Positions 82 through 9,198 of a stretch of DNA of 10,650 bases are shown piece by piece. Position 1 is the first letter of the stretch; every line of letters starts with the position of its first letter. The stretch lies in assembly GCA_016930435.1 (NCBI GenBank), contig JAFGGQ010000104.1, positions 1-10,650 on the forward strand, in the 5' to 3' direction. The notes below the pieces were generated by a model that did no database searches, was not told the origin of the DNA, and was given only the letters and a program-made list of their open reading frames with translations. The position numbers and the translations under genes are program-made. This stretch comes from a bacterium (GTDB taxonomy: Bacteria > UBP14 > UBA6098 > JAFGQG01).

Positions 82-347
82 CTAATCCAAAATGATCTTA
101 TCCAAAATAGCTATTATCACTGTATCTGCAGAGATGCTTTGGGTATGGTCTATCTGTCGGGTGGCGCTGCCGCTGGTCAAAAGGACGGTATCCCCGATGC
201 CGCTTCCGGAATATCCGCGGCGACAGTATAACATCTCAGCACCATTCCTTTTGGGGACACATCCTTTACCATCATAAGCTTGAAGCCCTGAAGGTCATTG
301 AGCTTGCGGGTAGCCCAAACCTGGCCGATAACTATACCCAATTTCAT
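82..347 (-). pseudogene. Frameshifted EutN/CcmL-family microcompartment vertex protein
   Basis: Read on the minus strand from ATG 347, frame 1 begins MKLGIVIGQVWATRKL, continues with GFKLMMVKDVSPKG and reaches YTVAADI. It then runs into a stop at 177-179, giving 56 aa. From about position 207 a second frame takes over with GSGIGDTVLLTSGSATRQ, then ADTVIIAILDKIILD, ending at TAG 82-84. Joined, the two halves give about 88 aa, the normal size of EutN/CcmL (Pfam PF03319) proteins. The family's conserved blocks appear in order: the VxG N-terminus, KLLLV-like strand, VAxD, GAGxGDxVLL, GSxAR and the VIAIID-like C-terminus. Such pentamers cap the vertices of bacterial microcompartment shells. A single missing base at about 205-210 (TTCCGG on the plus strand) explains the break. 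It could be a real inactivating mutation or a sequencing or assembly error. The ATG has no clear Shine-Dalgarno and lies 57 nt past the cdd stop. Family assignment is strong; whether the gene is truly dead is open. Confidence 0.85.
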
Positions 348-404: not shown

Positions 405-812
405 TTATCTTTTCCCTTTATTGATCTGAAAATTATTTGGTAATAGCTCTATTAAAGAGAATTTCCGGATCGACCCGTTACCGTTGGCAAGCAATATCTC
501 CATCTCCTCATTGAATTCGGCGATGACCTGCAGGCAGGCTCCACAGGGATAGATAAACTGCTTGGGGTTCTTCAGGCTATCTGAATAAACCAGTATCCTC
601 AGTATCCTTTTTTCACCATTAGAAAGCGCGTTAAATATAGCCACTCTCTCGGCGCAAATGGTTAGTCCGTATGAAGTGTTCTCGATATTGGTGCCGGTAT
701 AAATCCTCTCCGATCCGGATTCTACGGCTGCGCCAACCCGGAATTTAGAGTAAGGGGAATATGAAAACTTGATTACTTCCATGGCGGCTTTTAGTAATTT
801 ATCCTCAATCAT
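405..812 (-). CDS. cdd: Cytidine deaminase
   Basis: A 135-aa homotetramer-type cytidine deaminase, which hydrolytically deaminates cytidine and deoxycytidine to uridine and deoxyuridine in cytosolic pyrimidine salvage. The zinc site is complete: C53 in TICAER with catalytic E55, and C90 and C93 in the PCGAC motif. The N42-I43-E44-N45 segment matches the nucleoside-ribose-binding NxE motif, and SPYSKFRVGAA (19-29) is the usual N-terminal signature. Length is normal for the class (about 130 aa). The start is well supported: AAGGAG at 817-822 lies 4 nt before the ATG, and the gene overlaps the end of deoB by 8 bp, implying translational coupling. With deoB it forms a (deoxy)nucleoside catabolism pair. 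No pyrimidine or purine nucleoside phosphorylase, which would link the two reactions, lies in the window. Confidence 0.95.
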   Translation of the reverse strand: MIEDKLLKAAMEVIKFSYSPYSKFRVGAAVESGSERIYTGTNIENTSYGLTICAERVAIFNALSNGEKRILRILVYSDSLKNPKQFIYPCGACLQVIAEFNEEMEILLANGNGSIRKFSLIELLPNNFQINKGKR

Positions 813-1986
813 AAATCTCCTTCAAAAAGCTGTTCCCCTGACCGGTACCCTTTACCTTAAGGAACTCGGCCAGTGAAGCCCCCACATCGGCAAAGCTCCT
901 GCGAACACCTAAATTTAAACCTTTGCAGCTTTTACAGTAAGCTAACAATGGTACGTACTCCCGGGAATGGTCGGTAGAGGGTGTGGTGGGGTCATTGCCG
1001 TGGTCAGCAGTTATTATCAGCAGATCATGCTCGCCCATATTTTGATAAATTCGGGGCAATTCCTGGTCGAACTGTAATAACCCCTGAGCAAAGCCAGTGG
1101 GATTATTGCGATGCCCCCAAATAGTGTCAAAGTCCCCTAAATTTGTGAATATGAGTCCATCTGAGAGAGAAGCAATAAACTGGATGGTTTTTTCTATGCC
1201 CTCGGTATTTCGGGTAGTATGATAACTCTCGGTCAAACCTTTCCCGTTAAACAGGTCATAAATCTTTCCAATACCCACTACCGGCATTCCAGCGGCTTTA
1301 ATACTGTCCATTACCGTATCGCCGGGGGGATGAAGAGAAAAATCTTTCCGGTCCGGTGTGCGAATAAAGTGCCCCGGTTTACCGGTAAAAGGCCGGGCTA
1401 TCACTCTCCCCACCCCATGGTCGCCCACTAATATCCCGCGAGCTATTTCACACCATTCATAGAGTTTTTCCAAAGTGATTATGTCAAGGTGCGCGGCAAT
1501 TTGGAATACACTGTCTGCAGATGTATAGACAATTGGTTTACCCGTTGATAGATGTTCGTTACCCAATTGGTTGATAATTTCAGTGCCGGATTGGGCATAA
1601 TTACCTAAAATGCCCCTTCCGATAGCGGCAGTGAACCTTGAAATAATTTCGGGTGGGAATCCATCAGGATAAGTAGGAAGGGGCTGTTTTGAGATTAGTC
1701 CCATCAATTCCCAATGGCCTGAAGTAGAGTCTTTGCCGGTAGAGAGTTCCGCCATTTTGCCGAAAGCTCCCATAGGGTTTTTAACTGGTTGTATCCCTTT
1801 CAGGGGGTGAATATTTCCCAGGCCCAATGTTCGGAGATTGGGAAGGTTCAAGCCGCCCAGTAGTTCCGCCGTGTTCGCCAGGGTATTACTGCCCTGATCT
1901 CCATACTCAGAAGCGTCAGGCAACTCACCGATGCCCACTCCGTCAAGTATAATCAAAATTGCTTTATAACTATTTATGATGCCCAT
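805..1986 (-). CDS. deoB: Phosphopentomutase DeoB
   Basis: A 393-aa phosphopentomutase of the alkaline-phosphatase superfamily. It interconverts ribose-1-phosphate or deoxyribose-1-phosphate with the 5-phosphates, joining nucleoside phosphorolysis to the pentose-phosphate and DeoC routes. Metal and catalytic elements are all present: D15 in ILDGVGIGELPDA; T88, the phosphorylated threonine, in GKDSTSGHWE; D287 and H292 in NLGDFDTIWGHR; D328-H329 in TADHGNDP; and H340 in STDHSREY. The cap-domain signature YTSADSVFQIAAH (154-166) is also present. Length matches the usual 390-400 aa. The ATG follows the pcrA stop by 13 nt but has no obvious Shine-Dalgarno, so expression may depend on readthrough or coupling from pcrA. 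The stop codon lies inside the start of cdd. The association with cdd, and with a BMC vertex gene further on, points to deoxynucleoside breakdown rather than replication. Confidence 0.95.
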   Translation of the reverse strand: MGIINSYKAILIILDGVGIGELPDASEYGDQGSNTLANTAELLGGLNLPNLRTLGLGNIHPLKGIQPVKNPMGAFGKMAELSTGKDSTSGHWELMGLISKQPLPTYPDGFPPEIISRFTAAIGRGILGNYAQSGTEIINQLGNEHLSTGKPIVYTSADSVFQIAAHLDIITLEKLYEWCEIARGILVGDHGVGRVIARPFTGKPGHFIRTPDRKDFSLHPPGDTVMDSIKAAGMPVVGIGKIYDLFNGKGLTESYHTTRNTEGIEKTIQFIASLSDGLIFTNLGDFDTIWGHRNNPTGFAQGLLQFDQELPRIYQNMGEHDLLIITADHGNDPTTPSTDHSREYVPLLAYCKSCKGLNLGVRRSFADVGASLAEFLKVKGTGQGNSFLKEIYD

Positions 1987-1999
1987 TTATTATTCAGAC

Positions 2000-4171
2000 T
2001 TAATACTGCACAATTTCCAGGTTGGCGTATTTCAACATAATTTTTTTGATGCCTACGGAATAGAAGCTGATGGTCAGCGTGATGTTGTCTCCCAAGCCCT
2101 GAACTGCCCGGACAACGCCTCTGCCGAAATTGGGATGATAGACCACGGAGTCAGGCTTTACCGGTAGGCGGCCTCCAAAAGTAAAACTAAAACCACGGTT
2201 GGCAACATCTTCTGCTTTGGCCTCTTTTCTTTGGGTTAGCTCGGATGGAATTTCCTTGATAAACCGGGATACCAGATTGTTGAATTCTTCGGTAAAACGG
2301 TGTCTGATTGCGGCCCATGAGATATAGGCTTTCTTTTTGGCCCGGGTTAATACCACATAAAAGAGCCGGCGCTCTTCCTCAATATCGTGATTTTCATCCT
2401 GAGCCCTCATCAGGGGAAATAATCCCTCTTCCATCCCTGCAGCAAATACTACATCAAACTCCAGACCCTTGGCTGCATGCGCCGTCATCAGGTTAACCAG
2501 TTCCTCCCGTTCCTGCCATGTATCGATGTCCGTGATCAGTGAAACCTGCTGAAGGTAAGCTTGCAGACTGGCATTTTCATGGTTTTCCCGGGTAAAGGAA
2601 TGAGCGTCTGCCACGAATTCCCCGATATTGTCTAATCTCGACTCGGATTTTATGTCCTCGGATTCCTGCAGCATTTTAAGGTACCCGGAGCCGTCAAGGA
2701 GCATATCTACTACCTCATCAACGCTGCGATTCCGCGCATATTCCTGAAGATCGTTAATCAGAGCCCCAAAATCCCTGGCTGCGTTGTGCGCTCTTGGGGT
2801 GAGACCCTCAAGTCCGGAATGGATGATATAGTCAAGTATGGACATTTTGCTCTTACGGGCTCCGGTTTCTATTCGCTCCAGACTGACTTTCCCGAGACCT
2901 CGAGGGGGTATGTTTATGATCCTTTTAAGAGCAAGATCATCCTGGGGGTTTGCGATAAGACTGAGGTAGGCTAATACATCCTTTATCTCTGCCCGTTCAA
3001 AAAACTTCACTCCGCCAATCACCGTATATTGAATATTTCTTTTTCTAAGGGCTTCTTCGATCAACCGGGATTGTGCGTTGGTACGGTAAAGTACTGCTAT
3101 CTGACCCCCTTTATAGCCTTTTTCCCGGATCAGCTCCTCGATTGTACTGCCGATGGTCTCTCCTTCCAGCCGGTCATCAGTTAGCTTCAGGACGGTCAAT
3201 GGTTCCCCTCTTTCCGCCTCCGTCCATAATTTTTTGGGGTGTCTTTCACGGTTGTTTTCAACCACAGCTCCCGCGGCATCGAGGATGTTCTGAGTGGATC
3301 GATAATTCTGCTCTAAACGGATGGTCTTTGCGGATGGAAAATCCTCCGTAAAATAAAGAATATTCCCCAGATTTGCACCTCTCCAGCTATATATCGATTG
3401 ATCATCGTCTCCCACTACGGTCAGGTTCTGCCAGGCAGATGCTAAATGCCGCAGGAATTCATACTGGGCGCTGTTGGTATCCTGAAATTCATCTACCAGA
3501 AGATAAGAGAACATTTCCGCATAACGGGTTTTAACCTCCGGGTAATTTTGAAAGAGCTGTACCACGAACATGAGCATATCATCAAAATCTACGGCGTTAT
3601 TTTTTCTTAAGATATTTTGATAAGAGGAATAGACTTCGGATATAATTTTATCGAATGGGGATTTTACTTTTTGCTTATAGCCCTCCGGGTATATAAGGTC
3701 ATTTTTAAGGTTGGAAATGTGATAGAGTATAGATTTGGGTGAGGCCAGTTTGGGATCAAGGTCCATTTCCTTGAAGACATTTTTTACCACACTGAGGGAA
3801 TCTTTCTCGTCGTAGATAGTGAAGTTCGAGGTATATCCCAGGAGATTTATCTGATCCCGGAGTATTCTGCCGCATAAGGAGTGAAAAGTACCCATCCAGA
3901 TTCCCTTGAGGCTTTTATCGTAATTAGAAGCGTCAGAGTAGATAAGTTTTTCGGCCCGTTGCCGCATCTCTCCTGCAGCTTTGTTGGTAAAGGTTACAGC
4001 CAGGATTGAACCCGGGAAAACCCCTATTTCCTGGATCAGGTAAGCGATCTTGTAAGTAAGAACGCGGGTTTTGCCGCTTCCCGCCCCGGCCAATACCAGT
4101 ACCGGACCTTCAGTAGTTGTAACTGCCTCGAGTTGCTGAGGATTTAGAGATTGTTCAAAATTTATACTCAT
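2000..4171 (-). CDS. pcrA: ATP-dependent 3'-5' DNA helicase, PcrA/UvrD family
   Basis: A 723-aa superfamily 1A helicase that unwinds DNA in excision and mismatch repair and strips RecA or stalled complexes from DNA. Motifs run in order: Q motif LNPQQ (9-13), Walker A AGAGSGKT (28-35), Ia TFTNKAAGEM (60-69), Walker B LLVDEFQD (224-231), motif III GDDDQSIYSWRG (254-265), motif IV LEQNYRS (286-292), motif V TAHAAKGLEFD (563-573) and motif VI EEERRLFYVVLTRAK (598-612). The C-terminal VYHPNFGRGVV (677-687) and following strands match the Tudor-like tail that in PcrA contacts RNA polymerase. PcrA and UvrD cannot be separated by motifs alone; the size and tail are compatible with either. The gene starts 44 nt after gyrB. 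No Shine-Dalgarno is evident before the ATG, but no better start exists ahead of the Q motif. Confidence 0.95.
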   Translation of the reverse strand: MSINFEQSLNPQQLEAVTTTEGPVLVLAGAGSGKTRVLTYKIAYLIQEIGVFPGSILAVTFTNKAAGEMRQRAEKLIYSDASNYDKSLKGIWMGTFHSLCGRILRDQINLLGYTSNFTIYDEKDSLSVVKNVFKEMDLDPKLASPKSILYHISNLKNDLIYPEGYKQKVKSPFDKIISEVYSSYQNILRKNNAVDFDDMLMFVVQLFQNYPEVKTRYAEMFSYLLVDEFQDTNSAQYEFLRHLASAWQNLTVVGDDDQSIYSWRGANLGNILYFTEDFPSAKTIRLEQNYRSTQNILDAAGAVVENNRERHPKKLWTEAERGEPLTVLKLTDDRLEGETIGSTIEELIREKGYKGGQIAVLYRTNAQSRLIEEALRKRNIQYTVIGGVKFFERAEIKDVLAYLSLIANPQDDLALKRIINIPPRGLGKVSLERIETGARKSKMSILDYIIHSGLEGLTPRAHNAARDFGALINDLQEYARNRSVDEVVDMLLDGSGYLKMLQESEDIKSESRLDNIGEFVADAHSFTRENHENASLQAYLQQVSLITDIDTWQEREELVNLMTAHAAKGLEFDVVFAAGMEEGLFPLMRAQDENHDIEEERRLFYVVLTRAKKKAYISWAAIRHRFTEEFNNLVSRFIKEIPSELTQRKEAKAEDVANRGFSFTFGGRLPVKPDSVVYHPNFGRGVVRAVQGLGDNITLTISFYSVGIKKIMLKYANLEIVQY

Positions 4172-4215
4172 TAAAACAGAAGGGTATAATGGCCCTGAAT
4201 TTCTGGAAGACTAAC

Positions 4216-6651
<2,436 letters not shown>

Positions 6652-6663
6652 TTATATCTCCTG

Positions 6664-6969
6664 TCACACAAATTTTATATCATTAATCAGGTTGTTGTTC
6701 AATGCCGAGTTCAATTTTTTGAGGATCATAGGTTTTAAATAATGCAATTCCATGCGCCAAACAGGTGAGCTGACCTTGACCAGCATCACACCATTTTCGA
6801 CCCTAAGAGCCTTGCTTTGCAGGGCAATTTTTTCCCCCACTGCCCGTTCCCAATCAAGGCAAGCTTGGTTTTCGCTGAGAGTCCGGTTCCACCCTTTTTG
6901 TTTCAAAGCACGGGTTAAAATGGTACCTAAAGATTCAGGCTGTCGGTTGATCTGATCCCGGAATTTCAT
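6664..6969 (-). CDS. dciA: DciA-family (DUF721) replicative helicase loader/operator
   Basis: A 101-aa DUF721 protein. Members named DciA interact with the replicative helicase DnaB and are thought to replace DnaC/DnaI-type loaders in most bacteria. The family pattern is clear: W40 and V44-G45 in DWERAVGEKIA, the strand LRVENGVMLVKV (55-66), the SSPVWRMEL block (68-75, key W71), and the terminal NDIKFV. Start: GGAG at 6978-6981 lies 8 nt upstream, and the ATG overlaps the recF stop as ATGA (6966-6969), a coupled junction. The position between recF and gyrB is a common site for this gene. No separate dnaC or dnaI loader is seen here. The family call is firm; the helicase-loading role is from family knowledge. 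Confidence 0.9.
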   Translation of the reverse strand: MKFRDQINRQPESLGTILTRALKQKGWNRTLSENQACLDWERAVGEKIALQSKALRVENGVMLVKVSSPVWRMELHYLKPMILKKLNSALNNNLINDIKFV

Positions 6970-8072
6970 GTTACCATCTCCACTATACCGGGTTGATTAA
7001 TCTGGAAGATAATTCCTTCCTGATGTGGTTTAAGAACCAGTGGTTTAGGGCTGGTAATAAAGGTTTGCCCTATGCTGGGAGCCAATTCCAGAAGCTGTTG
7101 ACTATGATAATCATCAAGATCCGAGAAGCAATCGTCGAGCAGCAATATGGGTTCGGAATGGAAATGGTCCGCTAATTCCTTTGCGGATGCCAGGAGAATA
7201 GCCAGGCTGGCCGATCGAGCTTGACCCCATGAACCATATCGCTTTAAAGACCTCCCGCCTAAATTAATTTTAAGATCGTCCCTGTGTGGTCCGGTAAGGG
7301 TTCTGTAAGAGGAAATTTCTTTGCTGTAATTTCGGTTTAAATTGTCTTGAAATAAATCCTCTATCTGGGATTCCTCCTTGAAGTAAAAAGAAGGTGCATA
7401 TCGAATTAGTAATTTTGAATCATCTCGCGAAAGGGCTTGGAAAAAAGTGGCGCAACCGGATTTGATCTTTTCTATAAACTGCACTCTTTTTCTAATCAGG
7501 TAAGCTCCTTTTTCGATAAGTACATCATCGATTGAGGATAATAATACTTTTCCACCCACTACTCCTCCCCTGGCCAGCCTTTCCAGTACCTTGTTCCGGG
7601 ATATCAGGGTCTTGTTATATTTGCCAAGAGCTTCCAGGTATTCAGGATCGGTCTGTGATATGTGTATATCCATGAGTTTCCGGCGATCTGCCGGGGCACC
7701 CCTGACGATGTCGATCTCCTGGTGCCCAATCAGGGTCTGGGTGAAAATCCCCACCAGTTCGGAGGATGATTTTGCTGCCTGGCCGTTTATTTCCACTAAT
7801 TTTTTCCCATCCCTTAAAAATTTTACCTTGATCTCAATATTGCGATCAGATGCTTTTCCACAAACAGTTGACCAATCCTGTTCAAAATTGATAAAATCAT
7901 TATTGGTAGCAGCCCAGGGTGAACGGCCAAAAGCAAGGATATAAATTGCCTCTAATAGATTGCTTTTACCAACCCCATTGGGTCCTAAAATAAGATTTGC
8001 CTTTTTATTGAAATTCAGATTGAGCTTATTATAATTTCTGAAATTACGTAATAGAATCTCCTTCAAAACCAA
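6966..8072 (-). CDS. recF: DNA replication and repair protein RecF
   Basis: A 368-aa SMC/ABC-type ATPase that, with RecO and RecR, helps load RecA at single-strand gaps. Visible elements are Walker A GPNGVGKSN (30-38), the VRGAPADRRKLMD block (123-135) typical of RecF, TLTGPHRDDL (258-267), the ABC signature region SWGQARS (281-287), Walker B ILLLDD (309-314) and D-loop SDLD (317-320). Length is normal for the family (about 360-375 aa). The start is a TTG at 8072-8070, one base after the dnaN stop. It is supported by GGAGG at 8079-8083 inside the last dnaN codons and by an N-terminus (VLKEILLRNFRNY) aligned with the family. The signature has W282 and A285 where many RecFs have Q at both positions (SQGQQR), a mild deviation. 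Confidence 0.96.
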   Translation of the reverse strand: MVLKEILLRNFRNYNKLNLNFNKKANLILGPNGVGKSNLLEAIYILAFGRSPWAATNNDFINFEQDWSTVCGKASDRNIEIKVKFLRDGKKLVEINGQAAKSSSELVGIFTQTLIGHQEIDIVRGAPADRRKLMDIHISQTDPEYLEALGKYNKTLISRNKVLERLARGGVVGGKVLLSSIDDVLIEKGAYLIRKRVQFIEKIKSGCATFFQALSRDDSKLLIRYAPSFYFKEESQIEDLFQDNLNRNYSKEISSYRTLTGPHRDDLKINLGGRSLKRYGSWGQARSASLAILLASAKELADHFHSEPILLLDDCFSDLDDYHSQQLLELAPSIGQTFITSPKPLVLKPHQEGIIFQINQPGIVEMVT

Positions 8073-8073
8073 A

Positions 8074-9198
8074 TTATTCCTCCGGTAGCCGAAGCGGCAT
8101 CAAAATAGAAAGATATTGCTCATTCTCTTTCTGCTCAGCTGGTGTGATCTCAGAGGCAGACAGAGGAGACTTCATCGATAGTTTAACTTCGTCTGCTTCG
8201 ATATGTTCCAGGATCTCTAATAAATAATTACTGTTAAAACCTATTTCAAGCTCATCACCTTTGTAAGCCACATCAACTTCATCATGAGCTTTTGTGCCGA
8301 CCTCAAAATCAGATGAATATGCTCTAAGTTTGGATTCGCTAAGCTCAAATTTGGTCAGGTTTGTCAATGGACTGGCAAATACCTTAACCCGCTTGATAAG
8401 GTCAATCAGCTTGTCTTTGTTAATTATCAATTCTTTGTCGTTATCCTTGGGGATAACCTGCTCGTAGTTAGGGAATTTTTCAGCTATCAGATGCGAAGAT
8501 AAACCGTAATCATTGATGTTAAACAGGATGTTTTTCTCCCCCACGGTTATCTGAAAAGAGCCTTCCGGATAATCATCGGCCAGTTTTTTTAGATGAGTTA
8601 CTGTTTTTCCTGGCAGGAGGAGATCCAGCTCGGGACGGGTATCATCCGTTTCCATATAACGATAGAAGGTTAAACGATGTCCGTCAGTCGCGACCATACG
8701 CATTTCATCGGGTCGGGATTGCCAGTATAAAGCGGAAAGACTTATCCGGGTCATATCGTTGGATATGGCAAATCTGGTTTTCTCGATCATATCACCCAGC
8801 AGGCTGGAGGATATATTGAAAGTATTAATTTGCTTTTGCACAATGTTGAAAGAGGGAAAATCATCTTTCTCGACCCCGGATATCGAATATATACCTTCTC
8901 CCTGCTGAAAGGTAACCTTATTACCTTCAAGATTGAATTCTATTTCTCCTCCTCCAAACTCCCTTATCAGACTAAAAACTCTTTGGCCGGGGACCCCGAT
9001 GGAACCATCCTCTTGTCCTTCAACCTCGATTTTCCCCCACATATAAAGATCCAGGTCGGTACCCTTCAGGAATAAAGTGTTGCCCTCTAATTCCATAAGG
9101 ATGTGGGAAAGCACCGGATTAGTGCTTTTAGCGGGTACGACCCTCATAATATTCTTGACGATCTCAAACATCTTTTTATGATCAAACTTGAAAAACAT
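8074..9198 (-). CDS. dnaN: DNA polymerase III beta sliding clamp
   Basis: A 374-aa beta clamp that dimerises into a ring on DNA and tethers polymerase III and other partners. Three clamp domains fit the length, roughly 1-120, 128-248 and 250-374. Recognisable landmarks are KSTNPVLSHILME (24-36), the KDDFPSF segment (111-117), VATDGHRLTFYR (169-180, the hallmark of domain 2), FPNYEQVIP (242-250), FNSNYLLEIL (321-330) and the C-terminal LMPLRL (366-371), which contributes to the partner-binding pocket. GGAGG at 9203-9207, 4 nt before the ATG, gives the start. It heads the tightly packed run to recF (1 nt apart), dciA and gyrB, and follows an AT-rich spacer with a good promoter candidate. Unusually, dnaA is not directly upstream. 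Confidence 0.97.
   Translation of the reverse strand: MFFKFDHKKMFEIVKNIMRVVPAKSTNPVLSHILMELEGNTLFLKGTDLDLYMWGKIEVEGQEDGSIGVPGQRVFSLIREFGGGEIEFNLEGNKVTFQQGEGIYSISGVEKDDFPSFNIVQKQINTFNISSSLLGDMIEKTRFAISNDMTRISLSALYWQSRPDEMRMVATDGHRLTFYRYMETDDTRPELDLLLPGKTVTHLKKLADDYPEGSFQITVGEKNILFNINDYGLSSHLIAEKFPNYEQVIPKDNDKELIINKDKLIDLIKRVKVFASPLTNLTKFELSESKLRAYSSDFEVGTKAHDEVDVAYKGDELEIGFNSNYLLEILEHIEADEVKLSMKSPLSASEITPAEQKENEQYLSILMPLRLPEE
8079..8083 (-). promoter_or_regulatory. Ribosome binding site deciding the TTG start of recF
   Basis: GGAGG on the minus strand lies within the final dnaN codons, 6 nt before TTG 8072. It supports the unusual start codon, since no ATG or GTG start is available at this position. 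Confidence 0.8.

Follow-up and report, generated by a model that had tools for sequence, protein, structure and literature searches.

The DNA analysed here (the window) is a complete contig of 10,650 bp (C142), the left end of which carries a minus-strand gene for a EutN/CcmL-type vertex protein of a microcompartment shell (that is, BMC-P, the pentamer; type A in the grouping used below) at positions 347–82. The gene is split by a one-base shift. Given what has become of the other pentamer genes of the same genome, we favour, with modest confidence, the view that the type A gene was genuinely and recently inactivated by this shift. If the lesion is real, the genome offers a snapshot of an organelle that is losing its vertices but keeps its shell faces and its enzyme genes, a naturally occurring equivalent of a pentamer knockout; should it be an error, the organelle's only vertex gene is invisible to gene callers. 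In both cases, the genomic context connects a dispersed shell of the FRAG-like class, which has no known function, with the breakdown of deoxyribose phosphate (cdd, deoB, DeoC and RpiB), and this link is a testable assignment.

A vertex protein gene in two reading frames

The features on which the argument draws are as follows, in window positions.

1–81, no strand: short stretch from the vertex gene stop to the contig end (the window is the whole of contig C142)
82–210, minus strand: C-terminal part of the EutN/CcmL type A protein, −1 frame, 42 aa plus TAG at 84–82 (PF03319, 31.3 bits)
198–213, minus strand: one-base lesion zone (shift-point scan, single gap against the intact ortholog, stop position)
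210–347, minus strand: N-terminal part of the EutN/CcmL type A protein, frame 0, 46 aa to the junction zone (PF03319, 40.1 bits)
405–812, minus strand: cdd, cytidine/deoxycytidine deaminase (PF00383, 62.5 bits; synteny)
805–1986, minus strand: deoB, phosphopentomutase, overlapping cdd (PF01676 match)
2000–4171, minus strand: pcrA/uvrD helicase, synteny anchor (66.6% identity to the nearest relative, same order)

From the start codon (ATG, 347–345), frame 0 reads MKLGIVIGQVWATRKLNDLQGFKLMMVKDVSPKGMVLRCYTVAADI and then meets a TGA at 179–177 (codon 57), whereas the −1 frame carries on with GIGDTVLLTSGSATRQIDHTQSISADTVIIAILDKIILD up to the terminal TAG. An uninterrupted reading frame for the whole vertex protein is thus absent, frame 0 ending after 56 aa. 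Both pieces nevertheless match the BMC-P family profile above its gathering score of 25 bits, the N-terminal one over model positions 1–45 and the C-terminal one over positions 48–83, and when joined across the shift they reach 80.1 bits (E 1.7e-22) over positions 1–83 of 83. The first-pass annotation had read a EutN/CcmL-type shell protein of about 88 aa across one frameshift at this place, and the match of the frame-corrected protein to the whole PF03319 model bears this out; the same two half-matches were recovered independently in a profile search of the whole genome. The closest solved structures (PDB) are EutN/CcmL shell proteins, and the fold of the encoded protein is not in doubt. As it scores under the NCBIfam equivalog cut-offs for both CcmL and EutN, it is assignable to neither. 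The gene is like those of known EutN/CcmL/CsoS4 vertex proteins (BMC-P, PF03319) in its full-length match across the shift, and differs from them in its broken frame.

That the resemblance is due to chance and that no shell gene exists here, a suggestion that has the interrupted frame as its one support, is refuted by halves that separately exceed the family cut-off, in the right order and spacing, and by the existence of an intact syntenic ortholog; we attach practically no weight to it.

Position of the frame break

Every possible shift point was scored with a model built from the EutN proteins of other genomes, which placed the junction at about 198–213, the best points (201, 213, 210 and 207) lying within 1.2 bits. 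The nearest relative, a genome of the same family (G001), has an intact syntenic ortholog with 57% identity, and alignment of the two at the DNA level shows a lone one-base gap near 201–202. Scan and gap both fall close to the junction at 205–210 that had been proposed from the sequence at first reading. In the same alignment, no further lesion or indel was found in the coding region, and the two halves are conserved to a similar degree (28 of 46 residues in the N-terminal half, 22 of 42 in the C-terminal half).

Programmed −1 frameshifting, by which translation would restore the full protein, is a highly improbable explanation: the two frames do overlap, and one heptamer of slippery type (C CCA AAA, the sole one found) is present at about 252–258, but this lies too far upstream, and a shift at that point yields 79 bits, compared with 92 for the true junction, and replaces the conserved YTVAAD segment. 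Moreover, there is no slippery heptamer within the junction zone (198–213), and the G001 ortholog needs no shift.

Genomic neighbourhood

The vertex gene lies 57 bases downstream of cdd on the same strand, and cdd also precedes the vertex gene in G001. The order in the window is pcrA, deoB, cdd and the vertex gene; in G001 it is, on one strand, pcrA, cdd, an inserted AAA ATPase gene and the vertex gene. The name deoB rests on sequence resemblance and context, PF01676 identifying the superfamily only. Cdd deaminates deoxycytidine, and DeoB converts deoxyribose 1-phosphate (derived from deoxynucleosides) into deoxyribose 5-phosphate, which is the substrate of DeoC. A scan for promoters and terminators found no more sites than in shuffled sequence. 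The core replication genes dnaN, recF, dciA, gyrB and pcrA (2000–9198, minus strand) are followed directly, on one strand, by deoB, cdd and the vertex gene.

Loss of the other pentamer genes

In a whole-genome search, the split gene was the only PF03319 gene of its genome. A tree of the EutN proteins of the class distinguishes types A to D (the A, C and D groups well supported, B weakly resolved); relatives that bear microcompartment genes have up to four of these pentamer types, and G001, G008 and G010 have four EutN genes each. The source genome (G000) comprises 2.85 Mb in 180 contigs and is 90% complete, with a contamination estimate of 0.14%; absences in it carry the corresponding margin, except at the places of types B, C and D, which were seen directly.

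Types B and C are absent from the G001-equivalent place on contig C58 (L145:2796–2875), where the flanking genes, one nucleotidyltransferase-like and the other for a small lipoprotein, stand 79 bases apart. The place of type D, well inside a 36.6 kb contig (C56), is flanked by one gene that is sodium:solute symporter-like and another that is phosphate permease-like, and holds only a truncated relic (G000:C56 from 21618; L146:1342–1490) of 22 codons that are 64% identical to type D of G001 (E 8e-6); beyond these codons the frame changes, stops follow and the remainder is lost, the G001 gene at this place being intact. Both places are therefore assembled and contig-internal, and neither has a working pentamer gene. 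Given that types B, C and D also occur in a second family, type C there beside a similar lipoprotein gene, the direction of change is loss. As decay has gone much further in the type D relic than in the type A gene, there was probably a period in which type A alone served the vertices, and its own lesion, if real, is recent.

The small lipoprotein gene, which has no Pfam match, adjoins the vertex gene of type C in several members of the class (L040:9965–10360; L044, L048 and L052) and persists in the window genome (L145:2875–3288) after that vertex gene has gone; it possibly encodes a microcompartment-associated protein.

Inactivation or assembly error

Because the window is a whole contig, its position 1 is a contig end, and the lesion thus lies about 200 bases from the contig end of a draft genome. 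The genus is represented by the window genome alone, and the weights that we give to the competing explanations are judgements rather than computed values. The main alternative to inactivation is that the cell has an intact gene and that the shift arose by mistake in the assembly or consensus close to the end of the contig, in which case four pentamers would have been reduced to one working gene, type A. The closeness of the contig end, the presence of one lesion only in a gene that is otherwise well conserved, the intact shell-face and enzyme genes, and the need for some pentamer in a closed shell all speak for such an error; the lineage is, however, demonstrably losing pentamer genes, and no frameshift was found elsewhere in the approximately 85 genes (over roughly 85 kb) that we compared with G001. 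Of two cases flagged in that comparison, one proved to be an antisense ORF and the other an alignment that runs into a natural stop. On the basis of these genes the assembly is generally not indel-prone, and we reject the idea that it is. We regard an error as a possible but less probable explanation than inactivation.

The points that count against inactivation overlap with those above: the contig end is close, the lesion is single, the two halves are equally conserved, the BMC-H, BMC-T, DeoC and RpiB genes are intact, and there is no significant acceleration. The window gene does have a longer branch in the tree, but relative-rate tests were non-significant and the same tendency is seen in other genes, so accelerated evolution of this gene is rejected. 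In favour of genuine inactivation, none of the three remaining pentamer types has a working gene (B and C are gone, D is a relic), which suggests that the organelle is probably losing its vertices, beyond any sequencing slip. The frameshift-free comparison with G001 and the failure to find a EutE/PduP-type aldehyde dehydrogenase in this genome also count on this side.

We also considered a mixture of strains in which the shift is present in some cells only and the assembly shows one allele. The contig breaks just past the gene in a genome of 180 contigs, as can occur at strain variation; against this stand the low contamination estimate, the finding that the contig end has no second copy in the rest of the genome and the lack of direct evidence, and we consider the mixture very unlikely.

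Shell and enzyme genes of the organelle

The intact shell genes of the window genome encode a BMC-H protein (C77), a C-terminally extended BMC-H protein (C123) and a tandem BMC-T protein (C17) on separate contigs, so that with the vertex gene on C142 the shell genes are spread over four contigs. DeoC and RpiB are encoded by adjacent genes on C108 (TIGR00126, 284 bits, and TIGR01120, 153 bits, respectively), a locus that contains no shell gene in this genome. Among the 17 genomes of the class that were analysed, 8 have BMC-H or BMC-T genes, dispersed over contigs. In G006, a gene for type D EutN, an HD-domain gene and the gene for DeoC form one run on one strand (L053:7614–9408). These gene contents suggest a dispersed, FRAG-like organelle with the SPU-type enzymes DeoC and RpiB, for which a role as cargo is predicted.

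Microcompartments of the FRAG types have dispersed shell genes as their hallmark and lack a signature enzyme (Sutter et al. 2021, PMC8217296). The organelle considered here is like them in that its shell genes stand at several genomic places and that relatives have several BMC-P paralogs. It differs in that SPU-type enzymes are identifiable and in that, instead of a BMC-P triplet, the window genome keeps one BMC-P gene, which is broken. The SPU (sugar phosphate utilising) types are marked by DeoC and RpiB (PMC4207490, PMC8217296); likeness to these lies in the adjacency of the DeoC and RpiB genes and, in G006, in the single run that DeoC shares with a shell gene. The differences from SPU types are that enzyme and shell genes here occupy separate loci, that PduL is absent from all 17 analysed genomes of the class, and that the window genome (90% complete) yielded no aldehyde dehydrogenase of the EutE/PduP type. 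An enzyme of this type is encoded beside BMC-H in several genomes of the second family.

Proposed function and fate of the vertex protein

We suggest that the intact type A gene would have provided the protein of the five-fold vertices, closing a BMC-H/BMC-T shell around DeoC and RpiB, with cdd and deoB acting in a deoxynucleoside breakdown that would supply deoxyribose 5-phosphate to DeoC, and with the shell presumably holding back acetaldehyde. The vertex gene may be carried on one transcript with deoB and cdd, and through such a shared transcript vertex supply would follow nucleoside use. If the lesion is in the DNA of the cell, as we favour, the shell would now lack vertices and leak, and the organelle would be in the course of being lost.

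Carboxysomes of Halothiobacillus neapolitanus that lack CsoS4AB provide a precedent, in that shells still form, most of them normally shaped, but are leaky (PMC2760150). That case is a laboratory knockout of a carboxysome, whereas the present one would be a natural loss in another type of organelle; by analogy, vertex loss here would result in a leaky shell or in none. A natural vertex-free microcompartment, in which all four pentamers are dead or gone and BMC-H, BMC-T, DeoC and RpiB are kept, an open or leaky shell or a sheet serving as a scaffold, is conceivable but in our judgement unlikely.

Enzyme extensions and associated genes

The N-terminal extensions of RpiB and DeoC (L149:9347–10984, G000:C108) resemble encapsulation peptides, and RpiB has a long extra N-terminal region in both the window genome and G001. 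The hydrophobic moments of these extensions were not clearly above those of shuffles; from their sequences, we suggest that DeoC and RpiB carry putative encapsulation peptides. DeoC is N-terminally extended also in relatives without microcompartment genes (L105–L109), where the extension may have been left behind by an ancestral microcompartment that was lost elsewhere in the class. The HD protein that stands between EutN and DeoC in G006 precedes DeoC in G010 and G015 too, and might be a nucleotidase that feeds DeoC. The EutE/PduP-type aldehyde dehydrogenase of the second family has a helix-like N-terminus, and its gene lies directly beside that of a single-domain BMC-H protein (L153, L154 and L155). 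The gene for the extended BMC-H protein (G000:C123; L038:16292–18195) is divergent from a gene of the class II fructose-bisphosphate aldolase family.
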